Under the pieces are notes generated by a model. That model did no database searches and was not told where the DNA came from. It worked only from the letters and a program-made list of their open reading frames with translations. The position numbers were made by a program, and so were the translations under genes. A DNA stretch of 51,693 nt from an uncultured Gammaproteobacteria bacterium (GTDB lineage: Bacteria; Pseudomonadota; Gammaproteobacteria; Pseudomonadales; Pseudohongiellaceae): contig CAIOZF010000123.1 of the NCBI GenBank assembly GCA_903862645.1, forward strand, positions 1-51,693, read 5' to 3'. Below are positions 9,422 through 42,663 of this stretch, piece by piece. Every line of letters begins with the position of its first letter. Position 1 is the stretch's first letter.

Positions 9422-10858
9422 TTATTCTGCGGGTTGCCAGCCGCCGCCGAGGGCCTGATACAGGCTCACGGCGGTGTTGAGCTGTTGCAGCTTGCTGTCG
9501 AGATAGGCGTTACGACTGGAGAACAAGGTGTTCTGTGAAGTCAGCACCGTCTGGAACTCGGTAACCCCCTCCTCATAGCGCACCTGCGCAATACGGAATG
9601 ATTCCTCTGCAGCGCTGAGATTCTGCTGCGCCACGTTGACCTGCTCAGTCTGCAACTGAATGCTGCTGAGCAATACTTCGATCTCGTTGAAGGCCGCCAG
9701 CACGGTCCGACGATACGTCGACAGGCTGCTGTCCATTGTCAGTCGCGTCCTCTCCACAGTGCGTGTGCGCTGCCCGGTGTCGAGCAGTGTCTGCAATATG
9801 GCAGCGCTGGACCTGAAATACACATCCGGCGAGATCACCAGTTCAGACAAGGAAGTACTGCTCGTATTCAATCCCCCCGTCAGCGAGATACTCGGAAAAA
9901 AGTCACTGCGCGCGATGTCCAGCCCGGCCACTGTGCTGCGCAGTTGCGCCTCTGCCTGCACAAGATCCGGTCTGCGCAGCAGCAGCTCAGACGGCAACCC
10001 CGGCTGCACCTGAGGTACGGCAATATTGGCCAGCGTCTGTCCAGCAATGTCGAAACCCTGCACGCCTCGTCCACTCAGCAATGCCAGTGAGGCTCGCGCC
10101 GCCAGATCACTCTGCAACAGGCTGCTCAACGAAGCCCGTTCACGCTGCAATGCGATCTGCTGCTGCAAAGCCTCGATCGGCACGGCGACTCCCGCCGCCA
10201 CCCGCGCATTGGCGATCTCTGCGATGGCCTCGGCATTGGCCACGTTCTGACGCGCAGCGGCGGTCTTGTCGCGGATCAGCAGCAGCTGGAAATAGGTGGA
10301 GGCCGACGTCCCCAGCGTATTAAGCGCCACGTCAGCCACTTGCGCGGCTCGCGAATCATAGTCCGCCAGCGCCTGTGTATAGACCGCCGGCTTACTGAGA
10401 ATGTCTGTATAGCTGATGCTGCCGGCCACGTCGAACGGCGAGCCAGTGCTGCCGGAATTCTGCACACCGTCAACGCGGGTGTCGCTGTAGGAGGCGCCGG
10501 TGCCAATCGTCAGGCTCGCCCTGGGCAGCAGATTGAATTGTGCCTCGCGCAGATTGATCTGCGCCGCCTGCAGATTGCGCTGATTATTGGCCAGATCGAA
10601 ATTGCCGGTCTGCACCTGAGTGATCAACCCAGTCAGCTCCGCATCACCAAAACTCTCCCACCAGTTCACCGCTGGCCAGACCATGGCATCGGTGGTCACC
10701 GGCCCCAACCATGCGGCAGGGACATCAGACTGATCCAGCGGTGGCACTTCGCTTTGCAGAGCGCAACCGCTCAGCGCAGCAACGCTCAGTGACAACAGGG
10801 CGGCAACACAGGCTTTCCTTCCATACAGCTCTTTCATCTTGATGAAATTCCTATTCAT
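9422..10858 (-). CDS. RND/MacAB-type outer membrane factor lipoprotein (NodT family)
   Basis: A 478-residue TolC-like channel component. The N terminus is a lipoprotein signal with lipobox ALSGC. Two outer-membrane-efflux repeats of long heptad-rich helices follow (for example NQRNLQAAQINLREAQFNL and TEQVNVAQQNLSAAEESFR), with PGLPSELLLRRPDLVQAEAQLRS between them, a hallmark of NodT-type proteins. The start overlaps the macB stop by 8 bases; an in-frame ATG at 10837 (MKELYGRK), with AGGAA ten bases upstream, is an equally good start. With MacA and MacB it would complete a dedicated tripartite pump, unlike E. coli MacAB, which borrows TolC. Confidence 0.92.
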   Translation of the reverse strand: MNRNFIKMKELYGRKACVAALLSLSVAALSGCALQSEVPPLDQSDVPAAWLGPVTTDAMVWPAVNWWESFGDAELTGLITQVQTGNFDLANNQRNLQAAQINLREAQFNLLPRASLTIGTGASYSDTRVDGVQNSGSTGSPFDVAGSISYTDILSKPAVYTQALADYDSRAAQVADVALNTLGTSASTYFQLLLIRDKTAAARQNVANAEAIAEIANARVAAGVAVPIEALQQQIALQRERASLSSLLQSDLAARASLALLSGRGVQGFDIAGQTLANIAVPQVQPGLPSELLLRRPDLVQAEAQLRSTVAGLDIARSDFFPSISLTGGLNTSSTSLSELVISPDVYFRSSAAILQTLLDTGQRTRTVERTRLTMDSSLSTYRRTVLAAFNEIEVLLSSIQLQTEQVNVAQQNLSAAEESFRIAQVRYEEGVTEFQTVLTSQNTLFSSRNAYLDSKLQQLNTAVSLYQALGGGWQPAE

Positions 10859-15769: not shown

Positions 15770-15901
15770 GCGCTTCGTCGCAGCTCAATTGTGCTTTCCG
15801 GGAAATTGTGGTTTCATCCGGAAGCGTTGAAGATCACTGAAAGACTTGTCCAGAAACCCAATAAAAACAGGCAATTGCCACAACAAGAAGATCTGAGCAG
15901 C

Positions 15902-16984
15902 ATGGGTAATCAGCACCAATCCATCGGCAACTCCCGTCATGAATCGCGTCCCGGCAGCAAATGGCGTCCTCTCTTGCTCGCACTGTGCCTGCCGGCCCTG
16001 CTCATCGGCTGTTCGGAGCAGCTGGCCGCCAACCGCCCCTATATTCTCACGACCGCTACCGTCGGCGGCGCTTACTATCCGATCGGCGTGGCCATGGCCA
16101 CCATCTCCAAGTCCCAGCTGCAACGCACCCACAACATCTCGCTCTCCGCCATCAGTTCGGCCGGCTCACTGGAAAACGTCAAACTGCTGCGCGACAACGA
16201 GGCCCAGTTCGCGATCCTGCAGGGCCTCTTCGCTGCCTGGGCATGGAACGGTGAAGGGCCGGTGCGCAATCCGCAGAGCGAGATGCGCAGCATCAGCGCG
16301 ATGTGGCTGAACGTCGAACACTTCGTGCTGCTGACAGAACTGGTCAAGAACGGCACGCTCAGCGATTTCGGCACCTTGCAGGGCGAACGCGTCGTGCTCG
16401 GCGCCCGCAACTCCGGCGCCGATCAGTCCGGACGTTACATTCTCGAGCAACTGGGCATCGACTACGAGAGCGCCATGACCTTCGGCTACATGGGCTATGA
16501 GGCAGCTGCCAACGCCATGCAGGATGGCAATGTCGCCGGTATCAACGTCCCGGCCGGAGCGCCAGCCAGCGCCATCACCCAGGCCTTCGCGCAGATGGGG
16601 GATGACATCACCCTGCTGACTTTCTCGCAACAGGAACTTGACACGCTGAACAGCCGCTACCCGCTGTGGGACTGGTATGACTTTGCCCCCGGCACCTATC
16701 CGAATCAGGACGCTGCGATGCGCTCCATCGCTTCTCCCAATGTGCTGGTGGTGCGCGCCGATATCCCCGACGAAGCTGTCTATCAGATCACCAAGATGAT
16801 CTGGGAAAACCTCGGCACGATGCAGGACATTCACGCAGCGACCAAGGACATGCGTCTGGAGATTGCCCTCAAGGGCCTGGCCGCGCCCCTGCACCCCGGC
16901 GCCCTGCGTTACTACCGTGAACAGGGACTCGAAATTCCTCCCCATTTGTTGTTGGACCCGCAGCAGGAGCGGTCAGCCCCATGA
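15902..16984 (+). CDS. TRAP transporter TAXI-family binding lipoprotein
   Basis: A 360-residue solute-binding protein of the TAXI class of TRAP transporters. After a 30-residue hydrophilic-basic stretch there is a hydrophobic signal ending LLIGC, a lipobox, so it is probably lipid-anchored rather than free in the periplasm. TAXI blocks include TTATVGGAYYPIGVAMA, ISAISSAGSLENVKLL, EAQFAILQG and LGARNSGADQSGRYIL. TAXI systems import organic acids such as glutamate or 2-oxoglutarate; the substrate here is not readable. I chose the ATG at 15902 because the longer frame to 15791 would bury the signal. The stop overlaps the permease start by 4 bases. Confidence 0.9.
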   Translation: MGNQHQSIGNSRHESRPGSKWRPLLLALCLPALLIGCSEQLAANRPYILTTATVGGAYYPIGVAMATISKSQLQRTHNISLSAISSAGSLENVKLLRDNEAQFAILQGLFAAWAWNGEGPVRNPQSEMRSISAMWLNVEHFVLLTELVKNGTLSDFGTLQGERVVLGARNSGADQSGRYILEQLGIDYESAMTFGYMGYEAAANAMQDGNVAGINVPAGAPASAITQAFAQMGDDITLLTFSQQELDTLNSRYPLWDWYDFAPGTYPNQDAAMRSIASPNVLVVRADIPDEAVYQITKMIWENLGTMQDIHAATKDMRLEIALKGLAAPLHPGALRYYREQGLEIPPHLLLDPQQERSAP

Positions 16985-18981
16985 AATCTCCGTTGTTGCG
17001 CTGGGCCGCATTCCTGTTTGCCTTGTTCCATGTCTACACCAATGTCTTCGCGTCACTCTCGGAGCTGTGGTTCTCTGCGATCCACTTCGGCGGCTTCTGC
17101 GCGCTTTGTGCGCTGATGGACAATGAAACCAACGCCGACGGGCAGCGCCCCGGGCGACTGCGCCAGGGCATCAACATCGCTCTGGCGCTGCTGGCCGTGG
17201 CGGTTCCGGCCTACCTGATTCTGTTCGAGGATGCACTCTATGCCCGCGAGGCCGAGTTCGTATTCGCGGACTATCTGGTTGCGGGAGTCGCGGTGCTGCT
17301 GGCAATCGAATTCACCCGCCGCACCTCCGGCTGGTTCACGCCAGTGCTGATTGCTGTGTCTCTGTGCTACATGCTGTTCCTCGGGCGCTACACGCCCGGC
17401 ATCTTCTCCTTCCCGGGACTGAGTCTGGAGACAGTGCTCTATCGCAGCTTCTTCAGTGCCGAAGGGATGTTTGGCAGCACGGCCAATATCTCGGCCACCT
17501 ATGTCTTCATGTTCATCCTGTTCGGCTCCTTCCTGCTCAAGTCCGGGGCTGGTGACTTCATTGTGAAGCTCGCCCGCTGTCTGGCCGGGCGCTTTGTCGG
17601 CGGGGCGGGCATGGTCGCGGTCGTGGGTTCCGGCCTGATGGGGTCTGTGTCCGGGTCAGCGGTTGCAAACGTCGTCTCCACCGGCGTCATCACGATCCCG
17701 ATGATGAAGCGCTCCGGGTTTCCTGCCCAGTTCGCGGCCGGAGTGGAGGCCGCAGCCTCTACTGGTGGGGCGTTGATGCCGCCGATCATGGGCGCCGGGG
17801 CCTTCGTCATGGCGGGCTATACCCAGATTCCTTACACCCAGATCGTCGCGGTCTCGGTGCTGCCCGCGCTGTTGTACTTCCTGACAGTGGCGTTCTTCGT
17901 GCGCATTGAGGCGAAGCGCCTTGGCATCACCCCGGAAAAACTGGAGAAGGGGGAGAGCGCCGGCGCCGTGCTCCGCGAAGGCTGGCAGTTCATTCTGCCG
18001 CTGGGCGTACTGGTGGGGGGGCTGATGCTGGGCTATACCGCAATCCTGTCCGCCGTCTTTGCCATCTTCGCCTGCATCGTGGCCTCATGGTTGTCGCCCA
18101 CCCCGATGAAATGGCAGGAGTGCTTCGATGCCTGCGTCGATGGGGTGAAAGGCACGATCATGACGGCCTTGTTGCTGGTCGCCATCGGCCTCGTCATCAA
18201 TGTCGTGATCACCACGGGAGTGGGCAACGCCTTCTCGCTGATGATTGTGGAATGGGCGCAGGGCAGCCTCTTCATGACCCTGGTGCTGGTGGCACTGGCG
18301 TCTTTGATCCTCGGCATCGGTCTGCCCGTGACCGCCGCCTATATCGTACTGGCGACGCTGTCTGCCCCGATGATCTACGACCTGATCGCGCAGGACTACC
18401 TGCTGCAGGCACTGCAGGCCACCGACTTGCCTACCAGCGTCCGGGCTACGCTGAGCCTGTTCGGCGGCGACCCGGTGGTGGCGCTGCGGGAGATGCCGCT
18501 GGAGATGCGCCAGTTGCTGCGCACAGAATTGCTCGACCCGACGCTGCTGGCCGGCATGCTGCTCAGCTCTCACCTGATCATCTTCTGGTTGTCGCAGGAC
18601 AGCAACGTCACGCCCCCGGTCTGTCTTGCCGCCTTCGCAGCGGCAGGCATCGCTGGCACCAACCCGAATGCCACCGGCATGACGGCATGGAAACTGGCGA
18701 AGGGCCTCTATCTGGTGCCATTGCTGTTTGCTTATTCACCACTGATCACAGGCACCTGGCCCGAACGGCTCAGTGTGTTCTTCTGGGCGTGCATGGGTTT
18801 GTATGCAGCGGCTGGATTCCTGCAGTGGCGTCTGGAGAAACCCCTGAACCCACTCACCGCCATGATGCTTCTGGTGGCAGCTGTCTTGATGATGTGGTAT
18901 CCCTTTGGAATCGCGTATCATGCGGTGGGCGCGGCGTTGCTGTTCGGCGTCATTTTCTGGCAGAAACGCAGTATTGCCTGA
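16981..18981 (+). CDS. TRAP transporter fused permease (DctQ-DctM)
   Basis: A 666-residue polytopic protein in which the small (4-helix) and large (12-helix) TRAP subunits are fused, the form that usually pairs with TAXI binding proteins. Large-subunit signatures include GSGLMGSVSGSAVANVVSTG, GGALMPPIMGAGAFVMAG and LGIGLPVTAAYIVLATL. The C-terminal region contains TPPVCLAAFAAAGIAGTNPNATG, also typical of fused DctQM. It uses an ion gradient to import the ligand delivered by the lipoprotein encoded immediately upstream (4-base overlap). Confidence 0.95.
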   Translation: MKSPLLRWAAFLFALFHVYTNVFASLSELWFSAIHFGGFCALCALMDNETNADGQRPGRLRQGINIALALLAVAVPAYLILFEDALYAREAEFVFADYLVAGVAVLLAIEFTRRTSGWFTPVLIAVSLCYMLFLGRYTPGIFSFPGLSLETVLYRSFFSAEGMFGSTANISATYVFMFILFGSFLLKSGAGDFIVKLARCLAGRFVGGAGMVAVVGSGLMGSVSGSAVANVVSTGVITIPMMKRSGFPAQFAAGVEAAASTGGALMPPIMGAGAFVMAGYTQIPYTQIVAVSVLPALLYFLTVAFFVRIEAKRLGITPEKLEKGESAGAVLREGWQFILPLGVLVGGLMLGYTAILSAVFAIFACIVASWLSPTPMKWQECFDACVDGVKGTIMTALLLVAIGLVINVVITTGVGNAFSLMIVEWAQGSLFMTLVLVALASLILGIGLPVTAAYIVLATLSAPMIYDLIAQDYLLQALQATDLPTSVRATLSLFGGDPVVALREMPLEMRQLLRTELLDPTLLAGMLLSSHLIIFWLSQDSNVTPPVCLAAFAAAGIAGTNPNATGMTAWKLAKGLYLVPLLFAYSPLITGTWPERLSVFFWACMGLYAAAGFLQWRLEKPLNPLTAMMLLVAAVLMMWYPFGIAYHAVGAALLFGVIFWQKRSIA

Positions 18982-35048: not shown

Positions 35049-37154
35049 CTATTTTTTAGTTGCCGCTTCAGTGACATCTCTCTCACTGCAACACAATACC
35101 CGGTCCGCTATAGCCAATGGGGCGACTCGGTGGGTCACCATCACAGTCGTAATATGCAGTGCCTGAATCTCCTTCAGAACAGCCGCCTCTACCGTCGGAT
35201 CGAGGTTAGCCGTGGCCTCATCCAGAAACAGTATCCTCGGCAACATGTAGAAGGAACGCGCCAGCAACACCCGCTGCCCCTGTCCGGCCGACATGATCGA
35301 CCCCATGTCACCAATCAAACTGTTGTAGCCCATTGGCAACGTGCCGATGAACTCCTCGATCTGCGCCATCCGGCAGACTCGCTGCAAACGCTCATGATCG
35401 ACGTCTTCAGCAAAAAGCGTGATGTTATCCATCAGCGTGCCGGAGAGGAGCTGATCGCTCTGCAGCACTCCTGCACAGAGCGCACGAAACTGACGCAGAC
35501 CGAATGATTGAATATCGACACCATCGACACACACGCTGCCCGCAGAGGGTCCGAGCAGCCCCGCCATGATCTTGATCAGCGTCGATTTACCGGTGCCCGA
35601 CGGACCCGTGATGGCAACAATCTCGCCAGGCGCAATGTCGAGACTTATGTCGTTGAGCACAGGAATTCCGCAACCCGGATAACTGTACTGGACGTTCTTC
35701 AGCTGCAATCGCCCCGCTACCGGCACCCGCAGCTTTGGCAAGTAGAGATTATCGAATTCCCTCGGCGTGCAGGTGATATCCGATACTCGCTCCAATTGCA
35801 GACGCAGCAGCCTGATCTGCACCAGCTTCTCGATGAAGGAGCGAATGGAGGAGGAAAAGTTACTCTTCAGCGCGACGAAAGCAGTAAGAAAACCCAGAGA
35901 CAACGCCCCCTCCAGCACCGACATAGCCGCCAGATACACCACCAGCACGTTTTCCAGACCACTCAGCAGGCCGTGGGCCGCGTCAATGCGAATCATCACC
36001 CGAGTCAACTGCACATTGGCATTGACCTGCTCTGCATATTGGTTGCGCCACAGGAGAATGCGCGGCAGTTCACGACAATAGAATTTGATCATCTCGATGG
36101 CACGCATGTTCTCCATCAGGCTGCTGCTGGATCTGGCGTCCGCCACGATGCGCTGCTCGCTTAGCGATTTGACTGTGGGAATCATCGCTAGCCGCAACGT
36201 CGCGATGATCAGCACAAAGGTGAGCACCACACCGGCCAGCAGCGCACTGAAATAGAACATGACAACAAGCGTAAGCAGTGCAAATGTGCCATCCAGCACG
36301 ACCGTAATCATGTCTTCTGTGAGAATGTTCCTGATCTCCCGAATTGACCCGAACCGTGACACCAGATCACCGACATGGCGCTTGCTGAAGAATTCCGTGG
36401 GTAGAGTCATCAGATGATTGAAGACATTGCCGGCCATCTGAAAGCCCAGCTGATTCGAAAAATATAACTGCACACTCGCACGTGCGGCAATCATCCCCAC
36501 ATTGGTCAGCGCCAGCATGAAGAAACCGATGGCGAGCATGGCAAGGAAATCTGCATCCAGTTTAGATACACCCTCGTCGATCACCAGTTGCAAATAAAAC
36601 GCTGCGCCAATCGACGAAAGTTGCAGAAACAGCGAGAGCACGAACAGCTGCGCGACTGCCGCATTGAACCCCGGGTAACGCGTAAACAAATCGACCAGGC
36701 GCGAACGCAGTTCCTGCTTGTCCTGCTTCAACTCCTTGCCCGGAACACATTCAATGGCGATGCCTGTAAAGTGCCGTCCCACCTCACGCAACGAATACTC
36801 CCGCCGCCCAACCGCAGGATCGTGAATCACGATGCCTTTGCGCGATACGCTGCGCAGGACCACGAAATGGGTCATGTCCCAGTGCAGGATAGCCGGCAGC
36901 TGCAGCTGCCCAAGCTCTTCACATTCCAGACGCAGTGGTCGAGTCTGCAGACCAAGTGCATTGGCGATTGAGAGAATATCGCTAAGCCGTGCCCCGCGCG
37001 CGGACACCGGGTAGTCGCGACGCAGAGTGTTCAGATCAACGCGCCCGCCATAGTACGACGCCACCATCGCCAGACACGCCAGAGCACATTCTGTGCGCTC
37101 CGATTGCAGCACCTCGGGCAGTTTGTGACGGCCACCAAACAACGCGGCGATCAC
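35049..37154 (-). CDS. C39-peptidase ABC exporter (CvaB-like)
   Basis: A 701-residue peptidase-containing ABC transporter of the type that cleaves double-glycine leaders and exports the mature peptide (colicin V, class II microcins). The C39 domain is complete: oxyanion Gln17, catalytic Cys23 (SERTECALACLAM), His96 (HWDMTHFVVL) and Asp112 (HDPAVG). Six membrane helices follow (about 165-430), then the ATPase domain with GPSGTGKST, a variant signature MSAGQGQRV and LFLDEATANLD. It is last in the FAAL operon and overlaps the adaptor gene by 4 bases (ATGA). It strongly implies a leader-bearing peptide substrate, which is not encoded in the window as far as I can see. Confidence 0.93.
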   Translation of the reverse strand: MIAALFGGRHKLPEVLQSERTECALACLAMVASYYGGRVDLNTLRRDYPVSARGARLSDILSIANALGLQTRPLRLECEELGQLQLPAILHWDMTHFVVLRSVSRKGIVIHDPAVGRREYSLREVGRHFTGIAIECVPGKELKQDKQELRSRLVDLFTRYPGFNAAVAQLFVLSLFLQLSSIGAAFYLQLVIDEGVSKLDADFLAMLAIGFFMLALTNVGMIAARASVQLYFSNQLGFQMAGNVFNHLMTLPTEFFSKRHVGDLVSRFGSIREIRNILTEDMITVVLDGTFALLTLVVMFYFSALLAGVVLTFVLIIATLRLAMIPTVKSLSEQRIVADARSSSSLMENMRAIEMIKFYCRELPRILLWRNQYAEQVNANVQLTRVMIRIDAAHGLLSGLENVLVVYLAAMSVLEGALSLGFLTAFVALKSNFSSSIRSFIEKLVQIRLLRLQLERVSDITCTPREFDNLYLPKLRVPVAGRLQLKNVQYSYPGCGIPVLNDISLDIAPGEIVAITGPSGTGKSTLIKIMAGLLGPSAGSVCVDGVDIQSFGLRQFRALCAGVLQSDQLLSGTLMDNITLFAEDVDHERLQRVCRMAQIEEFIGTLPMGYNSLIGDMGSIMSAGQGQRVLLARSFYMLPRILFLDEATANLDPTVEAAVLKEIQALHITTVMVTHRVAPLAIADRVLCCSERDVTEAATKK

Positions 37155-38395
37155 AATTTTCTGCCCAGACTTCGCAGCGGGGCGAAGATGCGCTGCAGGA
37201 TGGTTTGTCTCGCCGTCACGATCTGCGCGCTGAATTGCATACCAGGACGCAGGCGCTCCATTGACGACCCGGCAGCCTCAAATACAGGCAGACTCGCACG
37301 AATCAGATACACCGGCTCGCGCAGCTCCGCAGGCAGGTCAATTTCGCGTGGATCCATTGCTGTGTCGGCGATGAACGTCACGGTCGCCGGAAAGGTTCCA
37401 TAGGTGCGCACAGGGTACGCATCGTAGGCCAGCATAATCTCTTGCTGCAGTGTCACCTCTCCGAGTGCACGCGACGGCAGATACAGCCATGCCTCCAGCG
37501 CACTGTCCTCCGGCAGCAGCGTGAGCAATGGCTGCCGCAGCTCTAACGCAGAACCCTGCGGCACCAGCAGGTTGCTGACGACACCAGCAGTCGGCGCCGT
37601 AACCGCAAAGACGCCCTGCATCTCCAGATCCTTGCGGCGCGCCAGCAGCTGGGAGCTCGTCTGTGCCATTGCCAGCAGCTCCTGTTGTAAGGTCAACGGC
37701 CGCATGACCAGCGCGTGACGCGCATCCGTCAGCGCTTGCTCGCGCCCCTCGATCAACAGCAGATTATTTCGACTCAACTGCTTCGCACTGTATAGCCTGT
37801 CTAGCTGTTGATCGCGAAGGGAGTCGGAGAGCACGCCTTGCGCGTGCAACCTGGCACTGCGCTCGTATTCCTGTTCACTGAGCGACAGGCGACTGTCTAC
37901 GCCAGACTGCTGCTCCCGCAACAACTGTAATTCGGATTGCAGTGCCAATACCTGCTGCTGTCGTTGCTGGTCGTCCAGCGTCGCCCGCTCTTTCGTGAGA
38001 ACCATCTGCTCTTCCAGATGCTGCGACTGCCGGTCGATCTGCTGCAACTGAAAGTGAATGGAGCCATGACCATACTGGTCCATCTGCGGAACCATCACGA
38101 TTGCCAGCACCTGCCCGGCCCCTACGCGTTGACCTTCAACAACCTCCACGCGCTGCAGCACTCCGGTGCGCCCGGCGTAAACCTCAACTGCACCCGCCAC
38201 GGGGTTGAGATGGCCGCGCGCGGATTCCGTGCGACTGAAACCAGCAAGACCGGCAAAGAGAAGAAAGCCCAGGAATGTCAGCAGCAGACCCACACAGAAC
38301 ACCCGCAGCCCCGGAGGTTGATAGAACACGGCAGCGCCGTATCGCGAACCGTTAGTCGCCAGCAGAGCCTCCTTTCTGAACAAGGTCTGACTCAT
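37151..38395 (-). CDS. HlyD/CvaA-type secretion adaptor
   Basis: A 414-residue membrane-fusion protein. It begins MSQTLFRKEALLA, like CvaA-type adaptors, with one membrane helix at about 28-52. A beta domain (GAVEVYAGRTGVLQRV), a long coiled coil (about 110-250) and a second lipoyl-like half (VTAPTAGVVSNLLVPQG) follow, ending in LRPGMQFSAQIV. It links the C39 ABC exporter to an outer membrane channel, probably a TolC-type protein encoded elsewhere. I chose ATG 38395, which overlaps the preceding stop as ATGA, over the longer frame to 38488 that runs into the acyltransferase gene. Confidence 0.92.
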   Translation of the reverse strand: MSQTLFRKEALLATNGSRYGAAVFYQPPGLRVFCVGLLLTFLGFLLFAGLAGFSRTESARGHLNPVAGAVEVYAGRTGVLQRVEVVEGQRVGAGQVLAIVMVPQMDQYGHGSIHFQLQQIDRQSQHLEEQMVLTKERATLDDQQRQQQVLALQSELQLLREQQSGVDSRLSLSEQEYERSARLHAQGVLSDSLRDQQLDRLYSAKQLSRNNLLLIEGREQALTDARHALVMRPLTLQQELLAMAQTSSQLLARRKDLEMQGVFAVTAPTAGVVSNLLVPQGSALELRQPLLTLLPEDSALEAWLYLPSRALGEVTLQQEIMLAYDAYPVRTYGTFPATVTFIADTAMDPREIDLPAELREPVYLIRASLPVFEAAGSSMERLRPGMQFSAQIVTARQTILQRIFAPLRSLGRKL

Positions 38396-39633
38396 TGCCG
38401 TGTGCTCCCTGCGCATGCCGCCGCAGCGCTGAAGTAGCCGAGCAGCGACGGGAGGTACTGCCATTGCTCCGGTGCTCGTCTGATCCATTTTTCCGCCAGC
38501 AGTGCCAACTTCTGAGTGACCCGGTTAACCGCCATTGCCAGAGACTCTCCCGGCAGCGGGTGAGTATCAATCATGTCTTCCATTTCAATGCGGTCAACGC
38601 CCTCACACTCCCATGTGACAAAAGGAATGATCGGTGTTCTGCCCGCGATTGCCAGCAGCGCCGGCCCTTTGACCAGCTGAGCCTTGTGGCCAAAAAACAG
38701 CACTTCGGTGGTCGCCCCGAAGTCTTCGCACAAGTCGAAGAGTAGTCCCACACTCTGGCAACCCGTGCGCAAACCCGCCACCGCAATGGCTGGGGCGTCC
38801 ACGCCATGCCGCAACACCTGCACTCGCAGTCCTGGGTTCAGCACATGCGGCACTGCATCATGTCGTTCCCGGCGCAGGGACATTACGGTCCGACCAGTGG
38901 TGACCTCATCAGCGATACAGCGAAAGGCGCCGACGAAGTCACCCATATGAATTGTCACCAGCACGCGCGAACCCGGACATCTATGGACCAGTGCCGAATA
39001 GACGTCCTGCTCGGGCCATAGAAACGCTCTGCGCAAGCCCTTCGCGACAGCCTCTGGGCGGTGTTCAATGCGCTTGGCATAGTTGTAATGAAAGTAGAAC
39101 TCGTGCTGGCTCAGGATTCGCAGCACGGCTGCATGCGGCTCATGCAGCAGCGCACCCAGGCCAGATGCAAGCGCCTCGCGATGTGCGGCAGCGGGCAACA
39201 GGTGAGACAGCAGTGGTGCCCGCAGACGATGCAGGCAATGCAGTAACCAGCGACGTCGCGACAAGGCCATTGGGCTGACGACACACTGCCCGGCCAGCCT
39301 GTGCAGGAGCATGGAGAGCGTTTCTACGAAAGTTCGTGCGGGGAGCGCGCTCAGCAGTTTGTCTGCGTAGTCGAGGTGTCGCCGGCTCTCCGATTCAGCA
39401 TAGACCTGCTGGCACAGTTCAATGCGTGCCCCGGTTTCGGTGTGCAGCAGACGGGTCGACCCGGACGGCCACGGACATGTCCGCAGCAGCAGTCGAATAA
39501 TGCTCGACTCGCGCCTGCACAGCATTGATTCCAGCGCGCCGCAGGTCAGCGTGACCGCGAGCGCATAGTGACCCTCGCATTGCGCTCGCCGGGCTTTCCG
39601 CAACTGATTGCTGATGTGGTTGGGAACAGTCAT
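38392..39633 (-). CDS. Divergent LpxL/HtrB-like acyltransferase
   Basis: A 413-residue protein. The C-terminal about 200 residues fit the LpxL/HtrB lysophospholipid-acyltransferase fold: RVLVTIHMGDFVGAF, then VGLLFDLCEDFG, EVLFFGHKAQLVKGPALLAIAGRTPIIPFV. The active-site His is at about 229. The usual HX4E pattern is altered: the +5 position is Val, while an Asp lies at +3. The first about 170 residues are Leu/Arg/His-rich and unlike lipid A acyltransferases; I recognise no domain there. The gene lies between the acyl carrier protein and the secretion adaptor with 4-base overlaps on both sides, so it probably transfers the ACP-bound acyl group to the exported product or a lipid. Confidence 0.72.
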   Translation of the reverse strand: MTVPNHISNQLRKARRAQCEGHYALAVTLTCGALESMLCRRESSIIRLLLRTCPWPSGSTRLLHTETGARIELCQQVYAESESRRHLDYADKLLSALPARTFVETLSMLLHRLAGQCVVSPMALSRRRWLLHCLHRLRAPLLSHLLPAAAHREALASGLGALLHEPHAAVLRILSQHEFYFHYNYAKRIEHRPEAVAKGLRRAFLWPEQDVYSALVHRCPGSRVLVTIHMGDFVGAFRCIADEVTTGRTVMSLRRERHDAVPHVLNPGLRVQVLRHGVDAPAIAVAGLRTGCQSVGLLFDLCEDFGATTEVLFFGHKAQLVKGPALLAIAGRTPIIPFVTWECEGVDRIEMEDMIDTHPLPGESLAMAVNRVTQKLALLAEKWIRRAPEQWQYLPSLLGYFSAAAACAGSTRQ

Positions 39634-39911
39634 ACCGTCTCCACTGGCGCGGCAACTGAACCGACAGCCACCACAAACATGTCAATGACGTCGGCGACAC
39701 TTTGCAGTTGCACCAGCAACTCTTCATCGGCCTGCACCTCATAATAGGATTCCAGCTCGAAGACCATCTCCACCATGTGCAGCGAATCAAGCCCCAGCTC
39801 CGCCAGCGCCATGTCGGGGGCAACAACGACTGCCACACCCCGACGCTCGCATCCTTCACGCAACGACAACAGCATCTGCTCCGACACTGCTCTCTTCAGG
39901 TTCTCTTCCAT
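39630..39911 (-). CDS. Acyl carrier protein
   Basis: A 93-residue phosphopantetheine-binding protein. The attachment motif ELGLDSLHMVEMV puts the modified Ser at 43, followed by the acidic helix II typical of ACPs (EMVFELESYYEV). Its start lies inside the end of the ligase gene. I favour ATG 39911 (GGAG upstream at a workable distance); ATG 39875, with GGAG seven bases upstream, and ATG 39917 are alternatives. It is a dedicated carrier for the acid activated by the adjacent ligase. Its stop overlaps the acyltransferase start by 4 bases (ATGA). Confidence 0.88.
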   Translation of the reverse strand: MEENLKRAVSEQMLLSLREGCERRGVAVVVAPDMALAELGLDSLHMVEMVFELESYYEVQADEELLVQLQSVADVIDMFVVAVGSVAAPVETV

Positions 39912-41547
39912 AGCCATGCTCCATTGGGGTTTCACTTCCATATTGTCCTGACAGAAATCGCTCCCGACACTGCATGCGTTGCAGCTTGCCGCTGCTGGTC
40001 AGTGGCAGGCTGTGTCGCGGCACTAAGCGAATATGCGCGGCAAGAATGCCTGGGGACTCGCACAAGTGCGATCGCAGCATTGGAATGGTAAGTTCTATAT
40101 CAGCGATAGCGGCATCACTGGCTGGCTCCAGCAGAATGGTCAACGAGTCGTCGGCATCCGGATACAGTTCGAACGCAGCGCAGCGCAGCACGCCCTTGCC
40201 AGACATGCACAGAGTCGCCTCGGCTTCGATGTCTTCTGCATGAAAACTGCGGCCTCGTCGCTTGATCAGATTCTTGCTGCGCCCCGTGAAGTACAATTCT
40301 CCCTGATGGACATAGCCCAGATCACCGGTACGCAGCACTACTTCCTGTTCAGTTCCAAACACTTCGTCAAGCCCGATGTGGTTGTAATATCCCCTGGCCA
40401 CGGAAGGCGAGCGCACCACAATCTCTCCCATCTCCTCGTCGGCCATTTCCTCTCCGGAATCCTGGTCAATGATGCGAATGTCGACCTGCTCCTGCAATCG
40501 ACCAATGCTGACGTCCTCGCGCCCGCTGCGCTGATGCCTATGCGTGCGCAGACCATGACGACTGCAGACATAGAGCGTCGCCTCGGCCATCCCATAACAC
40601 GGGTGCAACGCTCCCGTATCGAATCCTGCGCGGACAAATCGCTGCGAGAATCGCCGCAGCGTGTGTGCCGAGACTTTTTGCGCTCCGCAGTAAGCGAGGC
40701 GCCAGCTGCGCAGATGCAATGGTTCCAGCTCTTCGTCCGTGACTCTGGGATGGCAAAGCTCATACCCGAAGTCCGGCGCCCCGCTGATGGTGCCGGCATA
40801 GCGCGAGATCGCCTGCAGCCAGCGCAGTGGCCGTGCGGCGAAATCCGCAGGGGCAAGAAAATAATTGTGAATGCCGCAGTACAGGGGCGTGATGATGTGG
40901 CCGATCAGCCCCATGTCGTGATGGAATGGCAGCCAGCTCACGCCAATATCCGTTGTCGTGCAGCCAAAGGCCTGACGAATCAGTTCGCAATTGTGAAGGA
41001 TGTTGGCGTGAGTTATCGCCACACCCTTTGGCGCGGCGGTGGACCCCGAGGTGTACTGAATGAAGGCGATGTCGTCTGCGCAAGGTCGCGTCCATTGCCA
41101 ACAAACTCTTCGTTCCACTTTAGATTCACAAACCTTCCCCGTATCGACAAGGAGCAGGGAATTTTTGCCAGATAATTCCAGCGGCAGATGTCGCAAGGTC
41201 GCACTCAGACTCAGCAGGGCGACGGCCCCACTGGCGCGCACAATGCCCTCCAGTGTGCGCCAGTCCCTTGCTCGCGGTCGCGCGACGGGTATCGGGTAGG
41301 CGCCTGCCAACAAGCAGGCGAAGAACGCCACAATGAAGTCACTGCCATGGGGATAGAGCAACACCGCCGGCCGCCCGCGCAGGCCGTGACCCTGCAACAA
41401 AGCAGCGAGTTCGCCCGCTCTGGCAAAAAGGGCTGCAACGGTCAGGCTTTGCGTCACCGCGCCGTCGCGGTCCAGAAATGAGTACAGGGGCTTGTCGGGC
41501 TGTGACTGCAGCCGACTGTCAAACAGAGATAGCAGATCCCGATCCAT
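39856..41547 (-). CDS. Fatty acyl-AMP ligase (FAAL-like)
   Basis: A 563-residue adenylate-forming enzyme. The P-loop is YTSGSTAAPKGV. WLPFHHDMGLIGHI and SGAPDFGYELC are characteristic of fatty acyl-AMP ligases rather than acyl-CoA ligases, and LRTGDLGYVHQGELYFTGRSKNLI is the hinge region. It would activate a free acid as acyl-AMP and load it on the ACP encoded next. I chose ATG 41547 (GAGGAAG upstream) over a longer frame to 41667 because a sigma70-type promoter lies between them. About 25 residues past the family end overlap the ACP gene. It is first in the operon. Chain length cannot be read from the sequence. Confidence 0.9.
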   Translation of the reverse strand: MDRDLLSLFDSRLQSQPDKPLYSFLDRDGAVTQSLTVAALFARAGELAALLQGHGLRGRPAVLLYPHGSDFIVAFFACLLAGAYPIPVARPRARDWRTLEGIVRASGAVALLSLSATLRHLPLELSGKNSLLLVDTGKVCESKVERRVCWQWTRPCADDIAFIQYTSGSTAAPKGVAITHANILHNCELIRQAFGCTTTDIGVSWLPFHHDMGLIGHIITPLYCGIHNYFLAPADFAARPLRWLQAISRYAGTISGAPDFGYELCHPRVTDEELEPLHLRSWRLAYCGAQKVSAHTLRRFSQRFVRAGFDTGALHPCYGMAEATLYVCSRHGLRTHRHQRSGREDVSIGRLQEQVDIRIIDQDSGEEMADEEMGEIVVRSPSVARGYYNHIGLDEVFGTEQEVVLRTGDLGYVHQGELYFTGRSKNLIKRRGRSFHAEDIEAEATLCMSGKGVLRCAAFELYPDADDSLTILLEPASDAAIADIELTIPMLRSHLCESPGILAAHIRLVPRHSLPLTSSGKLQRMQCRERFLSGQYGSETPMEHGYGREPEESSVGADAVVVA

Positions 41548-41581
41548 GGGTTTCTTCCTCGAACTGACCACATCTGAATCG

Positions 41582-41610
41582 ACTATAGGCAGAGAACTGA
41601 AAATCGTCAA
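41582..41610 (-). promoter_or_regulatory. Sigma70-type promoter of the FAAL-exporter operon
   Basis: On the minus strand TTGACG (41610-41605), a 17-base spacer and TATAGT (41587-41582) match the sigma70 consensus in ten of twelve positions. The expected start site is about 28 bases before the FAAL ATG, with GAGGAAG in the leader. No operator was recognised nearby. Confidence 0.75.
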
Positions 41611-41682
41611 TTCGCTTCCTGACAGGCGCAAATGCAAAATCCGGCCTATGCTTGACACATAACCCAATCAAGGAGGATCGCT

Positions 41683-42663
41683 ATGCTCATCCCCAACAGT
41701 TCGACCTTTCGCACCGAAATTCACGGCGTTATTCCGTGGGACTATTCTCAGGACTATTCACAGGACTATTCACAGGGCCATGCACACGACAGAGCGCCGA
41801 TCCACCGGCTCTATGAACTGGCGAAAGCGAATCAGTGGAACGCCAACACGGACGTCCACTGGCAGACCGATGATTCTCTGGATGCTTTTCCCTGTAGTGA
41901 GGAGGCAAATCCACTACGCGGATTCCCGGACTACGACAAACTTCCGGAGGCAGAACGGCGCCGCCTGAGCTGGTGGCAGCACCGTCTTGAGATGACCGAG
42001 ATATTGCACGGCGAACAGGCTGCCATGCTGATTGCCTCGCAGTTGGTGTCGTGCCTGCCGACGGTAGAGGCGAAACTTTTTGCCAGCACCCAGGTGGTGG
42101 ATGAGGCGAGACATGTAGAATTTTTTTCCCGCTACCTGACCAGACTCGGCGGCGATATTTCAGGCCCCAGCGCCGCCTTGCTGAGCCTCATTCAGACAAG
42201 CATTGCCGAGCGGCGCTGGGATATGAAGTTCATTGCCTGCCAGATTCTCATCGAAAGCCTCGCGATGGCCCGCTTTCAGGAGCTTCGCCAAAGGGCTAGC
42301 GTTCCAGAATTGCGTTTTGCCGTGGATTACATTCTGCGCGACGAGGCCCGACACGTTCGCTTCGGAGTCGAGTTCCTGCGCGAACATCTGGCTGCGCTGG
42401 ATGCAGCTGCTCTGGAAGAACGCAGTAGTTTCGTCCTCGACAACGTCCTGAAGCTCGCCAATTCTCTGCACCTTTATGATCGCATCGGTGTGGCGAAAGG
42501 CTGGGATCCGGCAGAGTTGCGGCGACATCTGCGGCGCTATCGGCTGCAGCATCCCGAACAGAACCGCCAGCGTTTCCGTCAGCTTGCGCTGAACATGGAG
42601 GCTGTCGGTCTGTTGACCGCGCGAGGGCGGGAAAGGATGAAAAAGATGAATCTACTCGCTTAA
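41683..42663 (+). CDS. Ferritin-like diiron oxygenase
   Basis: A 326-residue helical protein of the ferritin-like diiron superfamily. The metal-ligand set is complete: Glu111 (LHGEQAA), Glu141-x-x-His144 (DEARHVEFF), Glu191 (LIESLAM) and Glu221-x-x-His224 (DEARHVRFG). This pattern resembles AurF/R2-type oxygenases, which hydroxylate, desaturate or N-oxygenate carrier-bound or free substrates. It starts 135 bases from and divergent to the FAAL gene, with a strong AAGGAGG before the ATG. The likely substrate is the ACP-bound acyl chain, by context only. Residues 20-31 are three DYSQ repeats. Its stop shares four bases (TTAA) with the convergent speA stop. Confidence 0.82.
   Translation: MLIPNSSTFRTEIHGVIPWDYSQDYSQDYSQGHAHDRAPIHRLYELAKANQWNANTDVHWQTDDSLDAFPCSEEANPLRGFPDYDKLPEAERRRLSWWQHRLEMTEILHGEQAAMLIASQLVSCLPTVEAKLFASTQVVDEARHVEFFSRYLTRLGGDISGPSAALLSLIQTSIAERRWDMKFIACQILIESLAMARFQELRQRASVPELRFAVDYILRDEARHVRFGVEFLREHLAALDAAALEERSSFVLDNVLKLANSLHLYDRIGVAKGWDPAELRRHLRRYRLQHPEQNRQRFRQLALNMEAVGLLTARGRERMKKMNLLA
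41740..41775 (+). repeat. Three 12-bp tandem repeats (DYSQ)
   Basis: GACTATTCTCAG, GACTATTCACAG and GACTATTCACAG lie in tandem inside the diiron oxygenase gene and encode DYSQ three times at residues 20-31. The unit length keeps the reading frame when copy number changes. Confidence 0.9.

Follow-up and report, generated by a model that had tools for sequence, protein, structure and literature searches.

The stretch of DNA analyzed here (hereafter the window) comprises 51,693 nucleotides, positions 1 to 51,693 of contig CAIOZF010000123.1 (assembly GCA_903862645.1), from an uncultured gammaproteobacterium of the family Pseudohongiellaceae. It carries an operon of five overlapping minus-strand genes encoding a fatty acyl-AMP ligase (FAAL), an acyl carrier protein (ACP), an acyltransferase (AT) of the LpxL/PatA type, a HlyD/CvaA-like periplasmic adaptor and an ABC exporter with a C39 peptidase domain, next to which lies a divergently oriented gene for a diiron oxygenase [Table 1]. 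A first reading made from the letters alone (hereafter the original prediction) had taken these genes for a candidate locus making and exporting an acylated, microcin-like peptide or an acylated product of another kind. All six reading frames are open and each matches its expected family; together with the conservation of the gene set in relatives described below, this establishes the six-gene locus as real.

The exporter harbors a Peptidase_C39 domain (E 4e-34), the sole one detected in the window's genome; in an alignment with PCAT1 (4ry2), the catalytic Cys, His and Asp residues correspond. The exporter is complete, as originally read, and is predicted to cut a double-glycine (GG) leader and to export the peptide. 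The adaptor matches HlyD_3 (E 7e-11). The AT matches Lip_A_acyltrans (E 1.8e-6), and its AlphaFold2 model (pLDDT 84) matches PatA (5f2t, E 1.1e-9) and LpxM (5kn7, E 4.6e-6); the conserved His region of the LpxL/PatA superfamily is present, with His229 and Gly231 invariant, and the protein has an additional helical N-terminal part. Enzymes of this superfamily esterify hydroxyls, and the known members PatA and LpxL/LpxM act on glycolipids. The ACP matches PP-binding (E 1.3e-8) and retains the DSL motif. The top matches of the FAAL among solved chains are FAALs (best 7r7g, E 8.5e-94); the FAAL models of NCBIfam score it below their cut-offs. The diiron protein matches AurF (E 1.6e-17) and contains two DEARH (ExxH) motifs, both invariant in 11 aligned sequences including that of the window, and its AlphaFold2 model (pLDDT 83) matches the R2-like ligand-binding oxidase (R2lox) and the arylamine oxygenase CmlI.

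The operon had been read as having four-base ATGA overlaps at three junctions. Two of these, ACP/AT and AT/HlyD, are indeed ATGA, while the third (HlyD/ABC) is GTGA, and the FAAL and ACP genes overlap by a longer 56-86 bases, depending on which ACP start is taken. Position 41547 is the likely start of the FAAL gene, and position 38395, at the ATGA overlap, that of the HlyD gene.

Table 1 Features of the locus, in window coordinates
Feature	Position	Strand	Basis
C39 peptidase-containing ABC exporter (CvaB/PCAT-like), 701 aa	35049..37154	-	Pfam PF03412, PF00664, PF00005
HlyD/CvaA-like periplasmic adaptor, ~414 aa	37151..38395	-	Pfam PF13437; listed open reading frame starts at 38488
LpxL/PatA-like acyltransferase (AT), 413 aa	38392..39633	-	Pfam PF03279
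Acyl carrier protein (ACP), <=103 aa	39630..39941	-	Pfam PF00550; LGLDSL phosphopantetheine site
Fatty acyl-AMP ligase (FAAL), ~563 aa	39856..41547	-	Pfam PF00501; listed TTG start at 41667
FAAL/diiron divergent intergenic region	41548..41682	n/a	Coordinates
Diiron oxygenase of the AurF/R2-like-oxidase family, 326 aa	41683..42663	+	Pfam PF11583

Conservation and distribution of the operon

The genes for the FAAL, AT, HlyD and C39-ABC proteins adjoin in all 18 uncut relative loci, and that for the ACP in 17 of them, the 18 being L003-L021 minus L014; loci L014, L022 and L026 end at contig ends and were not counted, the last of these having a FAAL and an AT with no ACP match between them. The gene set is therefore not a chance grouping. 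Adjoining the operon, the diiron gene was found by tblastn in 19/19 longer loci (L032-L049 and L053); in one case, the L037 range, it is interrupted by an in-frame stop. In L041, where the rest of the operon is conserved, this gene is decayed to two short tblastn fragments (10558-10791), which suggests that loss of the oxidation step is possible. A genus labeled g5 has a shorter set, AT-ACP-HlyD-C39-ABC, in 13/13 loci, the stretches fetched there containing neither a FAAL nor a diiron gene. Thus, the acyl genes and the exporter stay together in homologous loci, and the linkage on which the original prediction depended holds.

A search for the AT across 194 genomes, the window's own included, yielded matches in 58. 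Using profile A4 at E <= 1e-15, the AT was present in 54 of 119 genomes of the family (beyond this cut-off, G094 gave an additional fragment and G055 a weak match at 1.4e-9) and, at the same threshold, in none of 75 order-level relatives (best 1.4e-12); nor did any of 368 further genomes sampled from the class pass it, and the viral contigs and plasmids searched gave no relative of the AT. The 17 named locus records are from Gammaproteobacteria, Pseudomonadales or Pseudohongiella, mostly metagenome-assembled genomes (MAGs), and include LSUCC0112 and Pseudohongiella sp. O18. One of them, L103, carries the operon under the title 'MAG: Klebsiella pneumoniae isolate ZE-13nov19-95'; it is apparently genome G008 of genus g1, the title probably being a mislabel. 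On the exporter tree, from which the L247 and L262 exporters were omitted as too short and in which eight rows were flagged as long, the AT label requires three changes over 38 rows.

Peptides with double-glycine leaders

A single leader match at E <= 0.3 was obtained with a hidden Markov model (HMM) in the window's genome, namely MRILGTREIELVAGG|ASFHVGTDYVGFDFDSSEVGEVYDWAVEQMTEFFEWWDPAGYYNVS (G000:C136:2522-2707), which lies on a contig other than that of the operon. Its E value of 5.7e-7 is to be read with the fact that this peptide, hereafter C136, had been chosen by eye for its leader, which is one of the 24 rows of HMM A3; independently of the HMM, C136 has homologues in G011 and G013 at 56-66% identity. 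The window's genome thus has one C39 exporter and one GG peptide, and the genome-wide leader search advised along with the original prediction did yield a candidate, located on another contig. A CPBP/Rce1-like gene, considered as a possible immunity gene, lies directly upstream of the C136 gene, the same layout being seen in seven genomes including this one, and C136 itself matched nothing in an NCBIfam scan. Six-frame regular-expression searches for a precursor beside the operon found none in the window; in the three relatives nearest to it (L032-L034), no match was credible, and peptide profile A1 run on the window's own genome gave nothing credible, its best match (E 0.23) falling within a 503-aa frame. 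The leader DNA pattern gave 22 matches compared to 15 in the reversed control, and its matches are thus mostly chance; several other frames bearing the pattern are likewise short, or start 11-26 residues ahead of the GG. Elsewhere in the window, at 15791-18981, lie ordinary TAXI-type TRAP transporter genes (NMT1_3, DctM).

The GG leaders have the consensus MRELxxxEIxxVSGG. Microcin-like peptides with such leaders adjoin the operon in six of 18 relatives (L036, L037, L042, L044, L048 and L049) and in a seventh genome, G063, and many more are found across the family, unlinked to it, 'unlinked' meaning that no C39 or AT match fell in the fetched stretch, which sometimes spanned just ~1.5 kb per side. 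Of five peptides scanned, three scored above the cut-off of the NCBIfam class IIb bacteriocin model (cerein 7B family). One genome, G016, combines a single C39 exporter with five GG peptides, three of them ending in Ser. Many GG peptides have as neighbors small proteins that belong to a single family (27 members in 17 genomes) and that look membrane-like, by eye only, as would be expected of immunity proteins. At L215, L245, L246 and L251 (G014, G015, G026 and G031), GG peptides occur where no Peptidase_C39 was detected, three of the four having a small protein of this same family downstream. Some g5 genomes carry several C39 domains (six in G071, three in G072 and five in G078; loci L054, L055 and L058). 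Since peptides beside the AT-less exporters of G071 and G072 are devoid of a terminal Ser, several parallel GG-peptide systems may share one genome. Four other g5 genes (c13, c16, c21 and c37) were ruled out as substrates, being absent from full-operon loci.

The C-terminal residues were compared in 146 closed peptides (105 from AT-positive and 41 from AT-negative genomes) taken from the fetched loci and representing part of all profile matches; an open-ended peptide from G116 was dropped. In AT-positive genomes, 81 of 97 peptides ended in Ser, compared to none of eight encoded there beside AT-less C39 exporters (p 2.6e-6; the species are related, so that the counts are not independent and this and the other p-values overstate independence). 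The latter group stood at 1/8 before the manual correction of two link labels: the G063 peptide ending AVADDS was relabeled as adjacent to an AT operon whose AT lies outside the fetched stretch, and the G071 peptide ending ACSGFR as having a C39 exporter without an AT 2 kb away. Terminal Ser was found in 1/22 peptides from AT-free genera, in 0/9 from seven genomes elsewhere in the class and, among AT-negative genomes of AT-bearing genera, in 7/8 peptides of g5, 3/8 of g4 and 0/3 of g1. One g4 genome counted as AT-negative, G059, probably reflects an assembly gap, because its exporter, near a contig start, falls in the AT-linked clade. Counted by peptide family, the frequencies were 20/26 versus 4/23 (p 4e-5). 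Within the C136 family, the four AT-positive copies end in YYNVS, YYNRS or YYSRS and the four AT-negative homologues in YYSSGC, YYD, YYSGC or GGGGGR, and g5 peptides end in LYDWLS where AT-negative homologues from genus g3 run on with YDRYLSRLILNGSY.

Proposed function and its alternatives

That the operon exports GG peptides is very probable. Taken as a whole, the evidence inclines us, somewhat beyond an even balance, to regard the operon as a common maturation and export machine for GG-leader, microcin-like peptides, in other words as a lipo-microcin system whose AT perhaps acylates the C-terminal Ser. Following this proposal, the FAAL would load a fatty acid onto the ACP to yield an acyl-ACP, the diiron enzyme would oxidize or desaturate the chain, the AT would move it to the precursor, most likely to the hydroxyl of the C-terminal Ser, and the exporter would cut the leader and secrete the lipo-microcin. 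For g5, fatty acid synthesis would be the source of the chain on the ACP. FAALs depend on holo-ACP, according to an excerpt of PMC8460268. With respect to the secreted acylated peptide originally predicted, the peptide itself stood, GG peptides being found beside the operon in relatives and elsewhere in the window's own genome. Acylation of these peptides, which we infer from gene content and from the correlation with C-terminal Ser and its known exceptions, is moderately probable, the C-terminal Ser is more tentatively put forward as its site, and an oxidized or unsaturated chain is suggested by a single gene, that of the diiron enzyme. More speculatively still, the system could represent a new class of lipidated microcins in which one chromosomal FAAL-ACP-AT-diiron-PCAT hub O-acylates the C-terminal Ser of many scattered GG peptides with an oxidized or unsaturated chain, so that the lipid would take the place that the siderophore has in class IIb microcins.

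Besides the relatedness of the species, a number of observations weigh against this proposal. A held-out test in g5 was not discriminating, with Ser in 12/12 peptides from AT-positive and 6/8 from AT-negative genomes (p 0.15), and pointed in the wrong direction (13/15 versus 5/5) once AT pieces had been found in G093 and G094 and these genomes moved to the AT-positive group. The five AT-negative genomes of the reclassified test are 87-94% complete, and it is possible, therefore, that AT genes were missed in them. Two further AT-negative g5 genomes, G064 (99% complete) and G073 (96%), have Ser-ended peptides and gave no C39 match. Sixteen of the 97 peptides from AT-positive genomes lack the terminal Ser, including those of five operon-bearing g1 relatives (G004, G005, G006, G008 and G010), which end in GSH, ACSM or AACR and three of which adjoin the operon. 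Moreover, C136 lies off the operon contig and has homologues in four AT-less genomes, so that acylation may not be required for the peptide to function; searches of the AT-bearing genomes G002, G009, G084 and G106 gave no GG peptide; and no acylated product is known. Finally, the g5 operons sit amid lipopolysaccharide (LPS) genes, a Kdo transferase being present in 13/13 loci, an HldE-like gene in 10 and an LpxL-like gene in six.

This LPS neighborhood (L050-L063) is what would be expected if the AT had originated by duplication of LpxL, an origin at which it hints, or if the AT acts on LPS. It also speaks for the alternative that the exporter secretes plain, unmodified class II microcins while the acyl module serves to make something else, such as an acylated LPS, a lipid or a small molecule, and merely shares the operon. 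Consistent with that alternative, which seems unlikely, are the GG peptides of the C136 family in AT-free genomes, the majority of peptides that are unlinked to the operon, and the action on glycolipids of PatA and LpxM, the homologues with solved structures. However, neither the window nor any of the 19 fetched FAAL-type loci was found to have a Kdo transferase, an HldE-like or an LpxL-like gene; the AT, ACP and exporter remain adjacent across genera, even though g5 is devoid of a FAAL and a diiron gene nearby; GG peptides track the AT in g5, where they occur in 31/33 AT-positive versus 9/33 AT-negative genomes (p 2.5e-8); and the frequency of terminal Ser differs between the peptides of AT-less exporters and the rest. 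After the exporter come, in 11 and nine of the 13 g5 loci, respectively, a protein of 190-262 aa (FYDxACxxFYLLRLL..., c9) and a membrane-like protein (c14); one member of each, searched against Pfam at 0.001, gave no match.

Slightly less probable again is acylation at another residue (the N-terminus, an internal Ser, a Lys or a Cys), in which case the terminal Ser would be a trait of the lineage or a signal for the exporter. The Ser-ended peptides of AT-negative g5 genomes speak for it, as does the absence of a terminal Ser from three of eight operon-adjacent peptides (3/9 with the corrected G063). Against it stand the peptides beside AT-less exporters in AT-positive genomes, none of which ends in Ser, and the rarity of this residue within the cores, where it accounts for 7.8% of residues in the 97 AT-positive peptides compared to 81/97 last residues. 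In a further alternative, the acyl chain is loaded on a carrier-bound small molecule that is then joined to the peptide C-terminus, so that the AT would carry out the coupling and would not itself attach a fatty acid to the peptide. This is highly improbable given peptide tails devoid of a Gly/Ser-rich motif, despite the siderophore borne on the C-terminal Ser of class IIb microcins (PMC10233263), the class IIb leader type and frequent terminal Ser of the peptides described here, and the presence of c19, a gene for an alpha/beta hydrolase, in the vicinity of six g4 operons.

Comparison with known systems

The gene set was not found described in the literature searched, which was limited to open-licence PMC papers, and priority is not claimed. 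If the lipo-microcin proposal is correct, microcins would gain a fatty-acid branch made by a FAAL together with an ACP and an enzyme of the LpxL/PatA type; the AT-bearing genomes would provide 105 candidate peptides with a predicted attachment residue; and a lipid would be an alternative to a siderophore for bringing a peptide to, or into, the Gram-negative envelope.

Three features of class II microcin export are present, with an intact C39 domain on the exporter, a HlyD/CvaA-type adaptor in the operon and a GG precursor in the genome. Closest in organization are the class IIb (siderophore) microcins such as MccE492 and MccH47, which likewise have a GG leader and a PCAT exporter with its adaptor. 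Their export and modification genes are shared by several peptides and the addition is made at a C-terminal Ser, as described in an excerpt of PMC10233263, and they thus provide a parallel for the mechanism proposed here. The present system differs from them in having a FAAL, an ACP, an LpxL/PatA-type AT and a diiron oxygenase, and in being found, in this analysis, only in another bacterial family; no Gly/Ser-rich C-terminal motif of the class IIb kind was seen at positions -2 to -8, although a terminal Ser is common. Class IIa microcins and MccV (CvaA/CvaB) are alike in exporter, adaptor and peptide type; disulfides are the sole modification of class IIa peptides according to the same excerpt (PMC10233263), whereas acyl genes sit in the exporter operon here.

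If acylated, the peptides would share with the GNAT-lipidated ribosomally synthesized and post-translationally modified peptides (RiPPs), such as the nostolysamides, the combination of a ribosomal peptide and a fatty acyl group. The nostolysamide GNAT acylates Lys1 and prefers palmitoyl-CoA in vitro (PMC13060382, as excerpted). The AT described here, in contrast, has the PF03279/PatA fold and is accompanied by a FAAL and an ACP. Selidamides, goadvionins and lipolanthines are further systems to be named in this context, and Ren et al. (2024), going by the title, are said to describe RiPPs N-terminally acylated via non-modular fatty acid synthases. With PatA and LpxL/LpxM, finally, the AT shares its fold and conserved His region, and it differs from them in its additional N-terminal part and in its location within a peptide-export operon.

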